This document shows positions 3,826 to 8,585 of a stretch of DNA of 64,000 bases, piece by piece. Position numbers and translations under genes: made by a program. This DNA is from Methanocorpusculum sp. (GTDB taxonomy: Archaea > Halobacteriota > Methanomicrobia > Methanomicrobiales > Methanocorpusculaceae). Positions within the stretch are counted from its first letter, which is position 1; every line of letters starts with the position of its first letter. Location: assembly GCF_030655665.1 (NCBI RefSeq), contig NZ_JAUSPQ010000008.1:62001-126000 (forward strand). The letters are read 5' to 3'. The notes beneath the pieces were generated by a model that had not been told where the DNA came from, did no database searches, and worked only from the letters and a program-made list of their open reading frames with translations.

Positions 3826-4068
3826 TTAACGATATCTCTTTTCGAGAAGGAAACACCGTGCATTGGAAGTTTCGGGAGAACATGATCCTTGTAATGTTAA
3901 CAAATGTGAAAGTAATGATCCCATAGGTATCTCACTGCTCCCCTCATAAAGTTCCGCCATGTCGGCAATATACGACGGGCGTTCCGGATAGTGATAAGGG
4001 ATATGATTTTCCCTAGTAAAACTGGTCCGCTTTATTTCCGCTATTACGTTTGTCATTTTTTCATACAT
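3826..4068 (-). CDS. Possible small hypothetical protein (80 aa)
   Basis: An open frame with ATG at 4068 coding for 80 residues with no recognised motif; the middle reads IPYHYPERPSYIADMAELYE. It is the only sizeable frame in the stretch between the Hps gene and the beta-helix gene. There is no convincing ribosome-binding site. It could be a real small protein, a decayed gene or chance; support is weak. Confidence 0.25.
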   Translation of the reverse strand: MYEKMTNVIAEIKRTSFTRENHIPYHYPERPSYIADMAELYEGSSEIPMGSLLSHLLTLQGSCSPETSNARCFLLEKRYR

Positions 4069-4358: not shown

Positions 4359-6773
4359 ATGAATATCAAAAACAAACTATACATCGTACTTGAGGATATG
4401 ACACCGCACATCTATTCCGACGCCCAACTAGTCATGAACGGAAAAATCTACAATTCTGAAGAGAATTGTTACGGAAACGGCTGGAGCTGGGAGGCAGGAT
4501 CTCGGGTTCTTTCACTTTATTCATATCACGGAACTGGGATCGACTGTGTGGGGAATCTCTCTCTCATTACCTCGGGTGCAGAAAATACCATAGTTGGGAA
4601 ACACCGCCCGGGGATACGTGTGCGAAGTGGTGATCTGACTATCCTGGGAGAAGGATCACTCATTCTTACTGATAGTGAAACCGGTATCTGTGTTGATTCG
4701 GGAAAATTGTGCATAACGTCGGTACATGTGGGTATATCCGGCGTGGTATGCGGTATCCATGCACAAAAAGGCATCGCGATCTCCGGCTCGACCATCAGTA
4801 TACTATCTCAGGATACTGGTATCAAATCCGGTTCCTGTGCCGGCATAACCACAGATGCATCATCTCTTCAGATCATTGCGGCCGGTGTCGGCATTGAGTG
4901 TACCGGTCATCTTCAGTTGGATGGGGGGACCCATCTGATCGAGACGCCGGACGGGATAGGGATACATGTCTGTGATGGTTCATGTACTCTCAAAAACTGT
5001 TTCCTGAGGGTTGCCTCCCGGAAGGTAGGGATCATCGTTGGAAAGGGTGATCTGCAGATATCTTCAGTCACTGCCGAAATCAGTGCGGGAACCGGCATTT
5101 CGGTCAGCGGATCACTTATCGGAACAAATCTCCATCTCTTCATCAATGGAGAGGATGCCGGTATCCTCGTCAACGGGGATCTTTGCCGCCTCTCAGACGG
5201 GAGTTGTGCGGTTTTGGGAAATGTGGCGCTATCCTTTTCGAATGACGCCGCTTTCTCTCAGATGAATGTCACGGTCGAAGGGGAATTGACAGGTATCTTA
5301 ACGGGAGCGGGCTTTTGTTTGGAAGACAGCTCTGTTTCTGTCATCAGCGGAAAAGAGACCGGCGTCCGTGTTGGAACAGATATGATCTTTTCCGGCAGGA
5401 GTCTCGAGATCCGGGGCCGAACTGGCCTTGTTGTCAACGGAAATCTTGAGGTATCTCATGGAAATCTGACCTCGATCAATGAAGGTACCGGGATAGATGT
5501 GGGGGGGACATATACCCAGAAGTCCGGTATGATCTGCGGGACCGGAATGGCTGGGGACGGGATACGTGTCGGAAAATTGATGACAGTCCTTGGCGGCAAG
5601 ATCGATGCGACCGGATATTTGACCGGTCTTACTGTTCTCGACGATCTCACTCTTACGTCCGGTCTGCTGGCCGCTTCGGGAAAGACCGGGCTCCGGGTAG
5701 CAGGATCCTTCGAAGATCTCGGGGGATATCTTACGGTATTTGGTGATGAGTTTGGTCTGTATATCTCCGGCGGCATCGCCAGTTTTGGTGATGCGGTCGT
5801 TGATATTGCCGGTGATGTTGCATTCTATACTGGGAATGCCGTGAACATTTCCGGCGGGGCGGTCCAGATATCCGGGCGTTACGCCGGTATCTTCTCCTGC
5901 AGCGGTGATGTCCTGATCCACAGCGGAATGCATGACATATCTGCGGATACCTATGGCATACTGGTTACCTGCGGATCGGTTTATGCAAAGGGCGGGTCCC
6001 TCCAGATAAGAACGACCGATATCGAAGAGAGCTCCAGTGGGGTCTTTCTTGGCAATGGGGATCTTATCGTTTCCGGGACGCATCTGAATATTTCCGGCGG
6101 CATGTATGGGGTGAGGGGCGAACAAAGTACTGTGTCGGTAATGAATTCCGGTCTTGATGCTGAAGGAAGTGTGTGCGGGATCGCAGTAAAACGTCTTTCC
6201 TTCACGGGCGGGACGCTTACCGCATACGGGAAAAAAGCAGCTCTCTGTCTGGAAGATCACGAATCTATCTGTGAAAAAGACATCGTCACCATCTGCGGCA
6301 AATCCGGTGTCAGTGCCGAATCCGGTCCATATGCTGATCAGAAGTATGTTCACCTGTATCCAAAGCATTTTGCCAGGCTCATCATCCCGGCAACTGTCGA
6401 AAGTTTGGATGAGATCGTTCAGTGGGTTGACGCATCACTTCGTCCAAATGGTGTCCCCGAGCCCTTCATCTCAAAGATGACGCTTGTGATCGAAGAGCTG
6501 TTTGTCAATATCGTGAACTATGCCTATCCGAATGAACCTGGCTCTGTGCTCTTTACGATGTATATCGCCCCTTGTCTGAAACTGATCATTTCCGATACCG
6601 GGGTGCCGTTTAATCCACTGGAGTTTTCAGAGCCGGATGTTACGCTGCCGATTGATGATCGCACGGTGGGCGGTTTGGGTATATTCCTGTCTAAAAAACT
6701 GACGGACAGGATCACTTATGAAAGAGTGAACGGAACGAACGTCCTGACCGTTTACAAAAAACTCTATACCTAG
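4359..6773 (+). CDS. Beta-helix-like repeat protein fused to an RsbW-type histidine-kinase-like ATPase
   Basis: An 804-residue protein with two parts. Residues about 50-650 hold roughly 25 imperfect repeats of 22-27 residues with the pattern G-I/V/L-x-V-x-G-D/S-L-x-I, for example PGIRVRSGDLTI, TGISVSGSL, AGILVNGDL and TGLVVNGNLEV; this suggests a right-handed beta-helix. Residues about 674-804 form a GHKL ATPase of the anti-sigma-factor serine kinase kind: N-box EELFVNIVNYAYP (E712/E713, N717), G1 box SDTG (745-748) and G2 GGLGIF (771-776). There is no signal peptide or membrane segment, so it should be cytoplasmic. The next gene is a STAS antagonist 27 bases on, the normal substrate of such kinases, and a PP2C phosphatase lies beyond on the other strand. 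What the repeat part senses or scaffolds is unknown. Confidence 0.85.
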   Translation: MNIKNKLYIVLEDMTPHIYSDAQLVMNGKIYNSEENCYGNGWSWEAGSRVLSLYSYHGTGIDCVGNLSLITSGAENTIVGKHRPGIRVRSGDLTILGEGSLILTDSETGICVDSGKLCITSVHVGISGVVCGIHAQKGIAISGSTISILSQDTGIKSGSCAGITTDASSLQIIAAGVGIECTGHLQLDGGTHLIETPDGIGIHVCDGSCTLKNCFLRVASRKVGIIVGKGDLQISSVTAEISAGTGISVSGSLIGTNLHLFINGEDAGILVNGDLCRLSDGSCAVLGNVALSFSNDAAFSQMNVTVEGELTGILTGAGFCLEDSSVSVISGKETGVRVGTDMIFSGRSLEIRGRTGLVVNGNLEVSHGNLTSINEGTGIDVGGTYTQKSGMICGTGMAGDGIRVGKLMTVLGGKIDATGYLTGLTVLDDLTLTSGLLAASGKTGLRVAGSFEDLGGYLTVFGDEFGLYISGGIASFGDAVVDIAGDVAFYTGNAVNISGGAVQISGRYAGIFSCSGDVLIHSGMHDISADTYGILVTCGSVYAKGGSLQIRTTDIEESSSGVFLGNGDLIVSGTHLNISGGMYGVRGEQSTVSVMNSGLDAEGSVCGIAVKRLSFTGGTLTAYGKKAALCLEDHESICEKDIVTICGKSGVSAESGPYADQKYVHLYPKHFARLIIPATVESLDEIVQWVDASLRPNGVPEPFISKMTLVIEELFVNIVNYAYPNEPGSVLFTMYIAPCLKLIISDTGVPFNPLEFSEPDVTLPIDDRTVGGLGIFLSKKLTDRITYERVNGTNVLTVYKKLYT

Positions 6774-6800
6774 TGTCTAAAAAAAGGGAGAACGAAATCT

Positions 6801-7097
6801 ATGAAAATCACAAAAACTGTTAAAGAATCCAAACTAATCCTTGAGCTGGATGGTAAACTCGATACTCGAAGCGCTCCTGAGTTTCGAAGGTGTGCCGAGT
6901 CGTCCCTTGATGGGATCTCCGCAATTACGCTCAATTTTGCAAAACTTACCTACATGTCCAGTGTGGGTCTTTCGATCATTCTGACCCTGAAAAAGCAGCT
7001 TGGTCCTGCCGGGACATTAGTGATAATCAATGCTCACGGTCTGGTCCGTGAAGTCTTTGAGATTTCGGGGTTCGATGATCTTCTGGCAAAAGAGTAA
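6801..7097 (+). CDS. STAS-domain anti-sigma-factor-antagonist-like protein
   Basis: A 98-residue single STAS domain of the SpoIIAA/RsbV type. The central KLTYMSSVGLSIIL carries the expected phospho-acceptor; by alignment with the DSxGL / ISSAGL motif this is Ser54, with Ser53 beside it. In bacteria the RsbW-type kinase phosphorylates this serine and a PP2C phosphatase removes it, switching the binding partner. Here the probable kinase is the gene just upstream and the probable phosphatase the gene just downstream. GGGAG about 12 bases before the ATG is a plausible ribosome-binding site. Archaea lack sigma factors, so the final target must be something else. Confidence 0.92.
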   Translation: MKITKTVKESKLILELDGKLDTRSAPEFRRCAESSLDGISAITLNFAKLTYMSSVGLSIILTLKKQLGPAGTLVIINAHGLVREVFEISGFDDLLAKE

Positions 7098-7136
7098 GTA
7101 AGAAAAGCTGTGTTTTGGGTTTAATTCCTTTTTTTG

Positions 7137-8585
7137 TTATTCTCCAGTGTATCTGACCGCGAGCATCGTCATATCGTCTGCTTGTATGCTTCCTCCGGCA
7201 AAGACGTTTATATCTTCAGTTACCGAATTGATCATATTTTGCGGATCTTCTGATCTCTGCACGATCGAAAGGAGCCGGTCCATTCCGTACATTTCGCCAT
7301 TTTTGTTCTGTGCATCCGTTACTCCGTCAGTGTACATAAACAGCGTATCAGTTCTCTTCAGAACTGTTCGATGATCTATGTATTCGTGGTCCATAATTCC
7401 AAGTCCTGGTGCTTTTTCACAGACAAGCGAGTCACATGTTCCACCTGTGCAGAGTATTGGGGGATTGTGTCCGGCACATGAATAGGTGAATCGGCCGGTT
7501 TTGAGGTTAAGCAGCCCGAGAAAGATCGTGACGAACCTGCAGGTGTCATTGTTTTCCATAATTTCCTGGTTAACTATGGTGAGCATCCTGCCGGGTTGGG
7601 TAAATAATGCCCGCACTGACATCTTGATCATGGTTTTGACACGCATCATCATGAGTGCTGCAGAAATGCCTTTGCCTGATACATCGGCAATGACAAAGGC
7701 AAGATGATAGTCCCCGATCCGGATAATATCATAGAAATCTCCACCCACTCCATCTGATTCAGAGATCGATGCAAATATTTCTGCTCCCGGTATGTTTTCA
7801 AATCGTGCGGGTGATGGGAGAATGCTCGACTGCAGATCATGTGCAAGGAGCATCTCTTCATCGATATGGATCTGTTTGATGGCCTTTTTTATCCCGTATA
7901 ATACTTGCATATTGAGCAGAATAACCATGATGATGAAAATGATTTTGGTTGTTATTTCCGGAATGAAAAATATGTTCCCTTCCTGACTATTCCACAGGCA
8001 GCAGATGACTGCATAGGTCAGATAGATCGCGAGGGGGATGAACAGGACATTTCGAAAATCCCCACGCAGGTCTCTGTTTGTTTCCTGCATTGTTTTGATC
8101 AGGAAACGATTCGTCAGGATCAGACCGATCGTCAGAATTATCAAAATCAGAACGCAAGTTGCAAACTTCAGTTGATAGAGATCCCAGGGAAAGATCATAT
8201 GCACGATACTAAACGACAGATCAGAGCTGCTCAGACCGATAAAAAGAATAAACGATGCTATGAAGATTTTGGAAGATATGGTTCCGCGGTATATCCGCCA
8301 TGACACAAAAATAAACCAGATGCCGACCACTGCTACAAACAGGCTGTCTGCAATAAAAGAAATGAAATCATATCCGCTTGGTATGAGGAAAACAAGCGCC
8401 TCGTAGATTACATCAACTAAAGAGGTTAGAACAACAAGTGTCAGAAATCCTCCTGTCCAGAGTAATGCAGTGTGCAGATGGGGATATCTTCGTGTCAGGG
8501 TTAGATCCACCATGGCTGCGCAAAATCCCCAAACTAGGGCGAGCATACCCATGGAACTTATCCAGTTTAGGAGAAAATCATTCAT
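7137..8585 (-). CDS. Membrane-anchored SpoIIE/RsbU-type PP2C serine phosphatase
   Basis: A 482-residue protein. The first 235 or so residues form about seven hydrophobic segments, with no known sensor domain recognised. The C-terminal part is a PP2C-type phosphatase of the SpoIIE family with GGDFYD (281-286), IADVSGKGISAALMM, CAGHNPP, MYTDGVTDAQN and the final ADDMTML, so all metal-binding aspartates are present. The role inferred from context is to dephosphorylate the STAS protein encoded next door, coupling a membrane signal to the partner switch. It is convergent with the STAS gene (39-base gap), so kinase and phosphatase are made from separate transcripts. Confidence 0.92.
   Translation of the reverse strand: MNDFLLNWISSMGMLALVWGFCAAMVDLTLTRRYPHLHTALLWTGGFLTLVVLTSLVDVIYEALVFLIPSGYDFISFIADSLFVAVVGIWFIFVSWRIYRGTISSKIFIASFILFIGLSSSDLSFSIVHMIFPWDLYQLKFATCVLILIILTIGLILTNRFLIKTMQETNRDLRGDFRNVLFIPLAIYLTYAVICCLWNSQEGNIFFIPEITTKIIFIIMVILLNMQVLYGIKKAIKQIHIDEEMLLAHDLQSSILPSPARFENIPGAEIFASISESDGVGGDFYDIIRIGDYHLAFVIADVSGKGISAALMMMRVKTMIKMSVRALFTQPGRMLTIVNQEIMENNDTCRFVTIFLGLLNLKTGRFTYSCAGHNPPILCTGGTCDSLVCEKAPGLGIMDHEYIDHRTVLKRTDTLFMYTDGVTDAQNKNGEMYGMDRLLSIVQRSEDPQNMINSVTEDINVFAGGSIQADDMTMLAVRYTGE

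Follow-up and report, generated by a model that had tools for sequence, protein, structure and literature searches.

Gene content of the locus

The stretch of DNA analysed here (the window; 64,000 nucleotides of the archaeon Methanocorpusculum sp., RefSeq assembly GCF_030655665.1, contig NZ_JAUSPQ010000008.1, positions 62,001 to 126,000) carries three neighbouring open reading frames (ORFs), all confirmed at their coordinates: a beta-helix/RsbW-type kinase fusion of 804 amino acids (aa; 4359-6773, + strand), a STAS antagonist of the anti-anti-sigma type (98 aa; 6801-7097, + strand) and a membrane PP2C/SpoIIE phosphatase (482 aa; 7137-8585, - strand). A preliminary description made from the letters alone had proposed a complete partner-switching trio with intact motifs in an organism without a sigma factor, and both parts of this proposal were borne out. 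That is, Pfam and NCBIfam matches together with conserved catalytic columns confirm the locus, as far as sequence can, as a complete bacterial-style set of kinase, STAS antagonist and membrane phosphatase, and Sigma70_r2 (PF04542) gave zero matches in the host genome vs. detection in 10 bacterial controls. Hence, a sigma factor of the kind switched as client by the SpoIIAA/AB/E archetypes was not detected here. Bacterial partner switches are best known for sigma-factor regulation, and a sigma-factor client is a property of the Bacillus archetypes rather than of every partner switch. SpoIIE, HATPase_c_2 and STAS each had one match in the host genome (E-value 0.001 or better).

The C-terminal part of the fusion protein (codons 676-800; 6384-6758, + strand) is a HATPase_c_2 kinase domain of the SpoIIAB/RsbW type (PF13581, 2e-20), i.e., a GHKL kinase with N-box and G-boxes. 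Near-invariant alignment columns include the N-box E713/N717, D746 and G771-G772/G774, and the nucleotide- and Mg-binding motifs of the domain are intact. The top Foldseek matches of the domain were RsbW (6m37, TM-score 0.84) and SpoIIAB (1th8, TM-score 0.73), and its sequence could be aligned to the solved RsbW structure 6m36. While the ORF and its kinase domain stand as previously outlined, the gene probably starts at 4398 rather than at 4359, since the upstream ATG runs into an in-frame stop shortly after its equivalent in one related genome (G010) and a stop plus a frame change near its equivalent in another (G011). Residues 1-19 of the fusion also have a predicted local distance difference test score (pLDDT) below 50 in the AlphaFold2 model. 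The upstream ATG itself is conserved (window positions 4359-4400); either the start is 4398 or a short leader ORF is present.

The preliminary description named the kinase domain correctly and left the ~670-residue N-terminal part of the protein unnamed. This part is a right-handed, Cthe_2159-like beta-helix (codons ~24-630; 4428-6248, + strand), matched by PF14262 with an E-value of 2e-11 and 44.1 bits vs. a family cut-off of 25.8, and modelled by AlphaFold2 with strands from residue 24 to 631 at a mean pLDDT of 90, most values lying above 90. By this match it belongs to a carbohydrate-binding family and is a putative carbohydrate binder. Neither a sequence match nor a confident Foldseek match to a solved structure resembling the beta-helix was obtained. 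No signal peptide was seen in the sequence of the fusion protein, and the beta-helix is presumably cytoplasmic because it is fused to an ATP-dependent kinase domain. Plasmid-borne relatives of the whole fusion were not seen either: the matches listed lie in bacteria and cover the kinase domain alone.

A profile search across 393 genomes of the phylum revealed kinase-less relatives of the beta-helix in seven Methanomicrobiales genomes (G024, G141, G089, G074, G066, G033 and G073), those from the last six genomes being 863-870 residues long. These stand-alone proteins (L009 and L119-L124; also L087) are homologous to the window protein over ~640 residues at ~28-33% identity and differ from it in having a DUF2225-like N-terminus and no kinase domain, whereas the window protein has the kinase and no such N-terminus. 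The DUF2225-like region was detected in the G024 protein (E = 0.009) and also in the kinase fusion of the Methanocorpusculum genome G019 (L048, 7e-6); in the other six stand-alone proteins the N-terminus, which contains cysteines, looks similar on visual inspection but has no Pfam match. Six of the stand-alone genes (L119-L124) lie near genes for a conserved ~400-residue protein with multiple transmembrane (TM) segments and a TPR protein. The existence of kinase-less relatives beside conserved neighbours indicates, from gene context, that the beta-helix serves a purpose independent of the kinase.

The STAS protein (STAS family, 8e-16; TIGR00377 above cut-off) starts 27 nt past the kinase stop codon, consists of a single domain that aligns to solved structures (SpoIIAA of 1th8 and others), and is the most conserved part of the module (88-93% identity). 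Its Ser54, the predicted phosphosite, aligns with the phosphoserine position of SpoIIAA (Ala in the 1tid chain). A kinase-STAS fusion by readthrough was considered and rejected: the two genes share a reading frame in G010, G011 and the window, which they do not in G005 and G019, so the in-frame spacing is not kept across the five genomes that carry the module.

The phosphatase (SpoIIE, 1.3e-46) combines a catalytic domain at residues 293-479 with seven predicted TM segments at the N-terminus (about residues 8-223). Its metal-binding Asp residues (D283, D301, D420 and D470/D471) are invariant across 25 homologues, and its sequence aligns to solved structures of the RsbU/SpoIIE type (3ke6, 3t91). 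Pfam assigned a 5TM-5TMR_LYT sensor to 21 of the 25 phosphatases scanned, the window protein not being one of them; a comparison of its N-terminal profile with the LytS-type sensor profile gave a probability of 0.4%, and no other known sensor family was matched in profile comparisons, Pfam included.

Distribution and exchange among species

Of 25 Methanocorpusculum genomes, an identical set of five (G000, G005, G010, G011 and G019) carries the STAS gene and a kinase domain above cut-off, and all five also have a strong SpoIIE match; the other congeners show only weak or partial lone matches (SpoIIE in G013 and G016, HATPase in G009). Co-occurrence of the three genes, on which the preliminary description had staked its reading, thus held. 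Identical sets of five in 25 would arise by random placement once in 53,130 cases, a hand calculation that ignores kinship and linkage. The layout, with kinase followed by STAS and a convergent phosphatase, is kept in 5/5 module-bearing genomes, and it is plausible from this layout that the phosphatase is controlled separately from the kinase/STAS pair. A consensus scan for terminators, covering bacterial types only, found none in the convergent gap. Between Methanocorpusculum species, the ratio of nonsynonymous to synonymous substitution rates (dN/dS) is 0.09-0.31 for all parts of the module, which argues that the genes are real and maintained. PADLOC gave zero matches for the module, and a role in anti-phage defence was therefore dropped.

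Sliding nucleotide identity between the window and G011 is ~0.62 over the beta-helix vs. ~0.79-0.91 from ~6280-6330 onward. Similarly, synonymous divergence (dS) between the two is 0.80 for the kinase domain, 0.41 for STAS and 0.32-0.45 for the phosphatase, vs. 1.41 for the beta-helix and 1.11-1.78 for four flanking genes. Both the sliding identity and the dS contrast place a recombination breakpoint at 6280-6330 (+ strand), with the G011 lineage as the reference. The simplest reading is that kinase domain, STAS and phosphatase moved as one cassette by homologous exchange, with the breakpoint at the junction of beta-helix and kinase, and such joint recombination fits a cognate set of three coupled to a separable beta-helix. 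Loss appears to have contributed to the distribution as well. In G006 and G023 the HPS and YdjM genes adjoin, ~60-70 bp apart, with the module cleanly absent, and in the tree of flanking genes the module-less G006 is sister to the module-bearing G010 (support 0.99), which suggests at least two losses, or exchange.

Of the neighbouring genes, those flanking the module differ in G011 and G019. A small gene upstream (orf80; 3826-4068, - strand), encoding a protein of 76-80 aa with no Pfam match, is present only in three of the module-bearing genomes (G000, G005 and G010); its dN/dS is 0.15-0.27, and its tie to the module is one of association only.

Relation to previously described modules

The basic finding, i.e., a partner-switching trio without a sigma factor, was published in 2009, when Methanocorpusculum labreanum Mlab_1451, Mlab_1452 and Mlab_1450 were described as anti-anti-sigma factor, anti-sigma factor and serine phosphatase, respectively (Anderson et al. 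2009, PMC2686161). The available text of that paper also reports such genes in M. marisnigri and SpoII-type proteins in M. hungatei, notes the missing sigma factor and states that the genome gives no way of telling the targets; the trio and the missing-sigma puzzle recur in the M. labreanum genome paper (PMC3035222). The G005 locus (L045) is almost certainly this Mlab_1450-1452 locus, and it has the same gene order as the window, with genes 79-88% identical. The beta-helix fusion, the different sensor and build, the losses and the cassette exchange are new here in that they do not appear in the available text of Anderson et al. 2009. A related trio has been described among nonribosomal peptide synthetase (NRPS)-associated genes in Methanobrevibacter ruminantium (PMC2812497). 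Within the open-licence literature we found no experimental work on the module.

The window trio matches Bacillus SpoIIAA/SpoIIAB/SpoIIE and RsbV/RsbW/RsbU in the motifs and folds of kinase, STAS and PP2C phosphatase, and differs from them in the absent sigma factor, the ~610-residue beta-helix on the kinase and the unassigned 7-TM region on the phosphatase. The module common in other Methanomicrobiales has the same three domain types and, like the window, a single-domain STAS with a YxSS motif. However, it is an operon of STAS, SpoIIE (~455 residues, with a 5TM-5TMR_LYT sensor) and a free kinase (~140 residues), as opposed to a fused kinase and a convergent phosphatase whose 7-TM region is not detectably related to that sensor and whose catalytic domain groups with bacterial ones.

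Specifically, in a tree whose bacterial members were the best matches to Methanocorpusculum or to the order's sequences (nearly the same records for both), the catalytic domains of Methanocorpusculum fall in a group (99/97) that otherwise holds bacterial sequences plus a single one from the Methanomicrobiales genome G087, and 26 other sequences of the order are set apart (100/99). An approximately unbiased (AU) test did not reject Methanocorpusculum plus the 26 order sequences as one group (p = 0.21), and rejected such a group only marginally with G087 added (p = 0.045). We conclude that the Methanocorpusculum phosphatase was likely acquired separately from the order's usual one. While the available text of Anderson et al. 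treats the genes of M. labreanum, M. marisnigri and M. hungatei jointly, our phosphatase trees do not support a common origin. Likewise, the comparison of the three genes across Methanomicrobiales suggested in the preliminary description would be unsafe if it took them for a single module, given that the order's usual module has another sensor, another order of genes, another architecture of the kinase and probably another ancestry.

Two observations concern the modules of other genomes. In G087 (L075:646-10436), genes for a SpoIIE phosphatase of the LytS type, a STAS protein and an RsbW-type kinase form a tight operon that continues with an MFS_3 transporter, LuxE and a fusion of LuxC and AMP-binding domains; another HATPase_c_2 domain, fused to an acetyltransferase, is encoded downstream. 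That is, a predicted partner switch heads an acyl-reductase operon in an archaeon. Further, conserved proteins of ~425 aa with an N-terminal STAS and an unassigned ~320-aa C-terminus are encoded beside the order's kinase and phosphatase genes (L064:7153-8418, L083:9375-10652, L054:10364-11653 and L067:9722-10990), and are candidate effectors of the usual module.

What the module may control

We lean, though not strongly, towards the reading that the locus encodes a self-contained partner switch of the SpoIIAA/SpoIIAB/SpoIIE (RsbV/RsbW/RsbU) kind that is read out through the beta-helix fusion and has a client other than a sigma factor. Under this hypothesis, the membrane phosphatase, with its 7-TM putative sensor, and the kinase domain would together set the phosphorylation state of STAS Ser54; STAS would dock on the fusion's kinase domain when unphosphorylated and be released from it when phosphorylated, and STAS occupancy would decide the binding partners of the beta-helix/kinase protein. 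The output most likely runs through the fusion protein since the genome holds, as far as detected, a single STAS and a single such kinase. It is possible, albeit doubtful, that the client is even built into the kinase chain, with STAS binding gating a cytoplasmic beta-helix effector in cis, so that neither a sigma factor nor a separate client would be needed.

Two results weigh against a readout through the beta-helix fusion. Next to the module, the five genomes share no candidate client gene. Also, the beta-helix evolves faster than the other parts, with 58% identity to G011 vs. 80-93% for the kinase domain and STAS, and could be a sensor or a scaffold instead of the output surface, with part of this gap to G011 stemming from the recombination itself. 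A tethered kinase-STAS model, with a predicted template modelling score (pTM) of 0.54 and low confidence in the STAS part, spoke neither for nor against docking.

Alternatively, and in our view rather unlikely, the kinase domain might sequester a separate, unrelated archaeal protein (e.g., a transcription factor) in the way SpoIIAB holds its sigma factor, and the beta-helix might tune the kinase by serving as a sensor or a platform for docking. The SpoIIAB/RsbW fold and motifs of the kinase domain and the rapid evolution of the beta-helix are consistent with this, and N-terminal sensor domains are frequent on signalling enzymes; however, the lack of a conserved neighbouring client, with flanks that differ in G011 and G019, argues against it, unless the client is encoded elsewhere. 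The targets proposed in the preliminary description (general transcription factor, chemotaxis, envelope, metabolism) received no backing from our analysis.

It is more doubtful still that STAS itself acts as effector in the manner of SiaABCD or SypA/SypE, with kinase and phosphatase doing no more than setting its phosphorylation state, unphosphorylated STAS activating a separate target and the beta-helix localising the kinase. The high conservation of STAS would fit, as would the resemblance of a membrane phosphatase plus a single STAS to SiaA/SiaC, and the SiaA model does match the phosphatase from residue 240 (3.7e-12, far below the model cut-off); yet none of the five genomes has a target gene next to the module, and the recent exchange of the cassette inflates the identity of STAS between the window and G011. 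That the module is a leftover, mobile or in decay, which no longer has a role is very improbable: its patchy occurrence (5/25), its clean absence between HPS and YdjM and the sister relationship of G010 and G006 would agree with it, but all parts are under purifying selection with open frames and intact motifs, and mobility genes were not seen beside the module.

Implications

The question of what archaeal partner switches control dates from 2009, and the architectural and evolutionary detail reported here makes it easier to test. Specifically, the beta-helix fusion narrows the search for the client; with one detectable copy of each part, pull-downs face one kinase and one antagonist; and a pair of sister species with (G010) and without (G006) the locus offers a natural comparison. 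For the family as a whole, the locus cautions against reading the partner-switch genes of Methanomicrobiales as a single inherited signature of the order.

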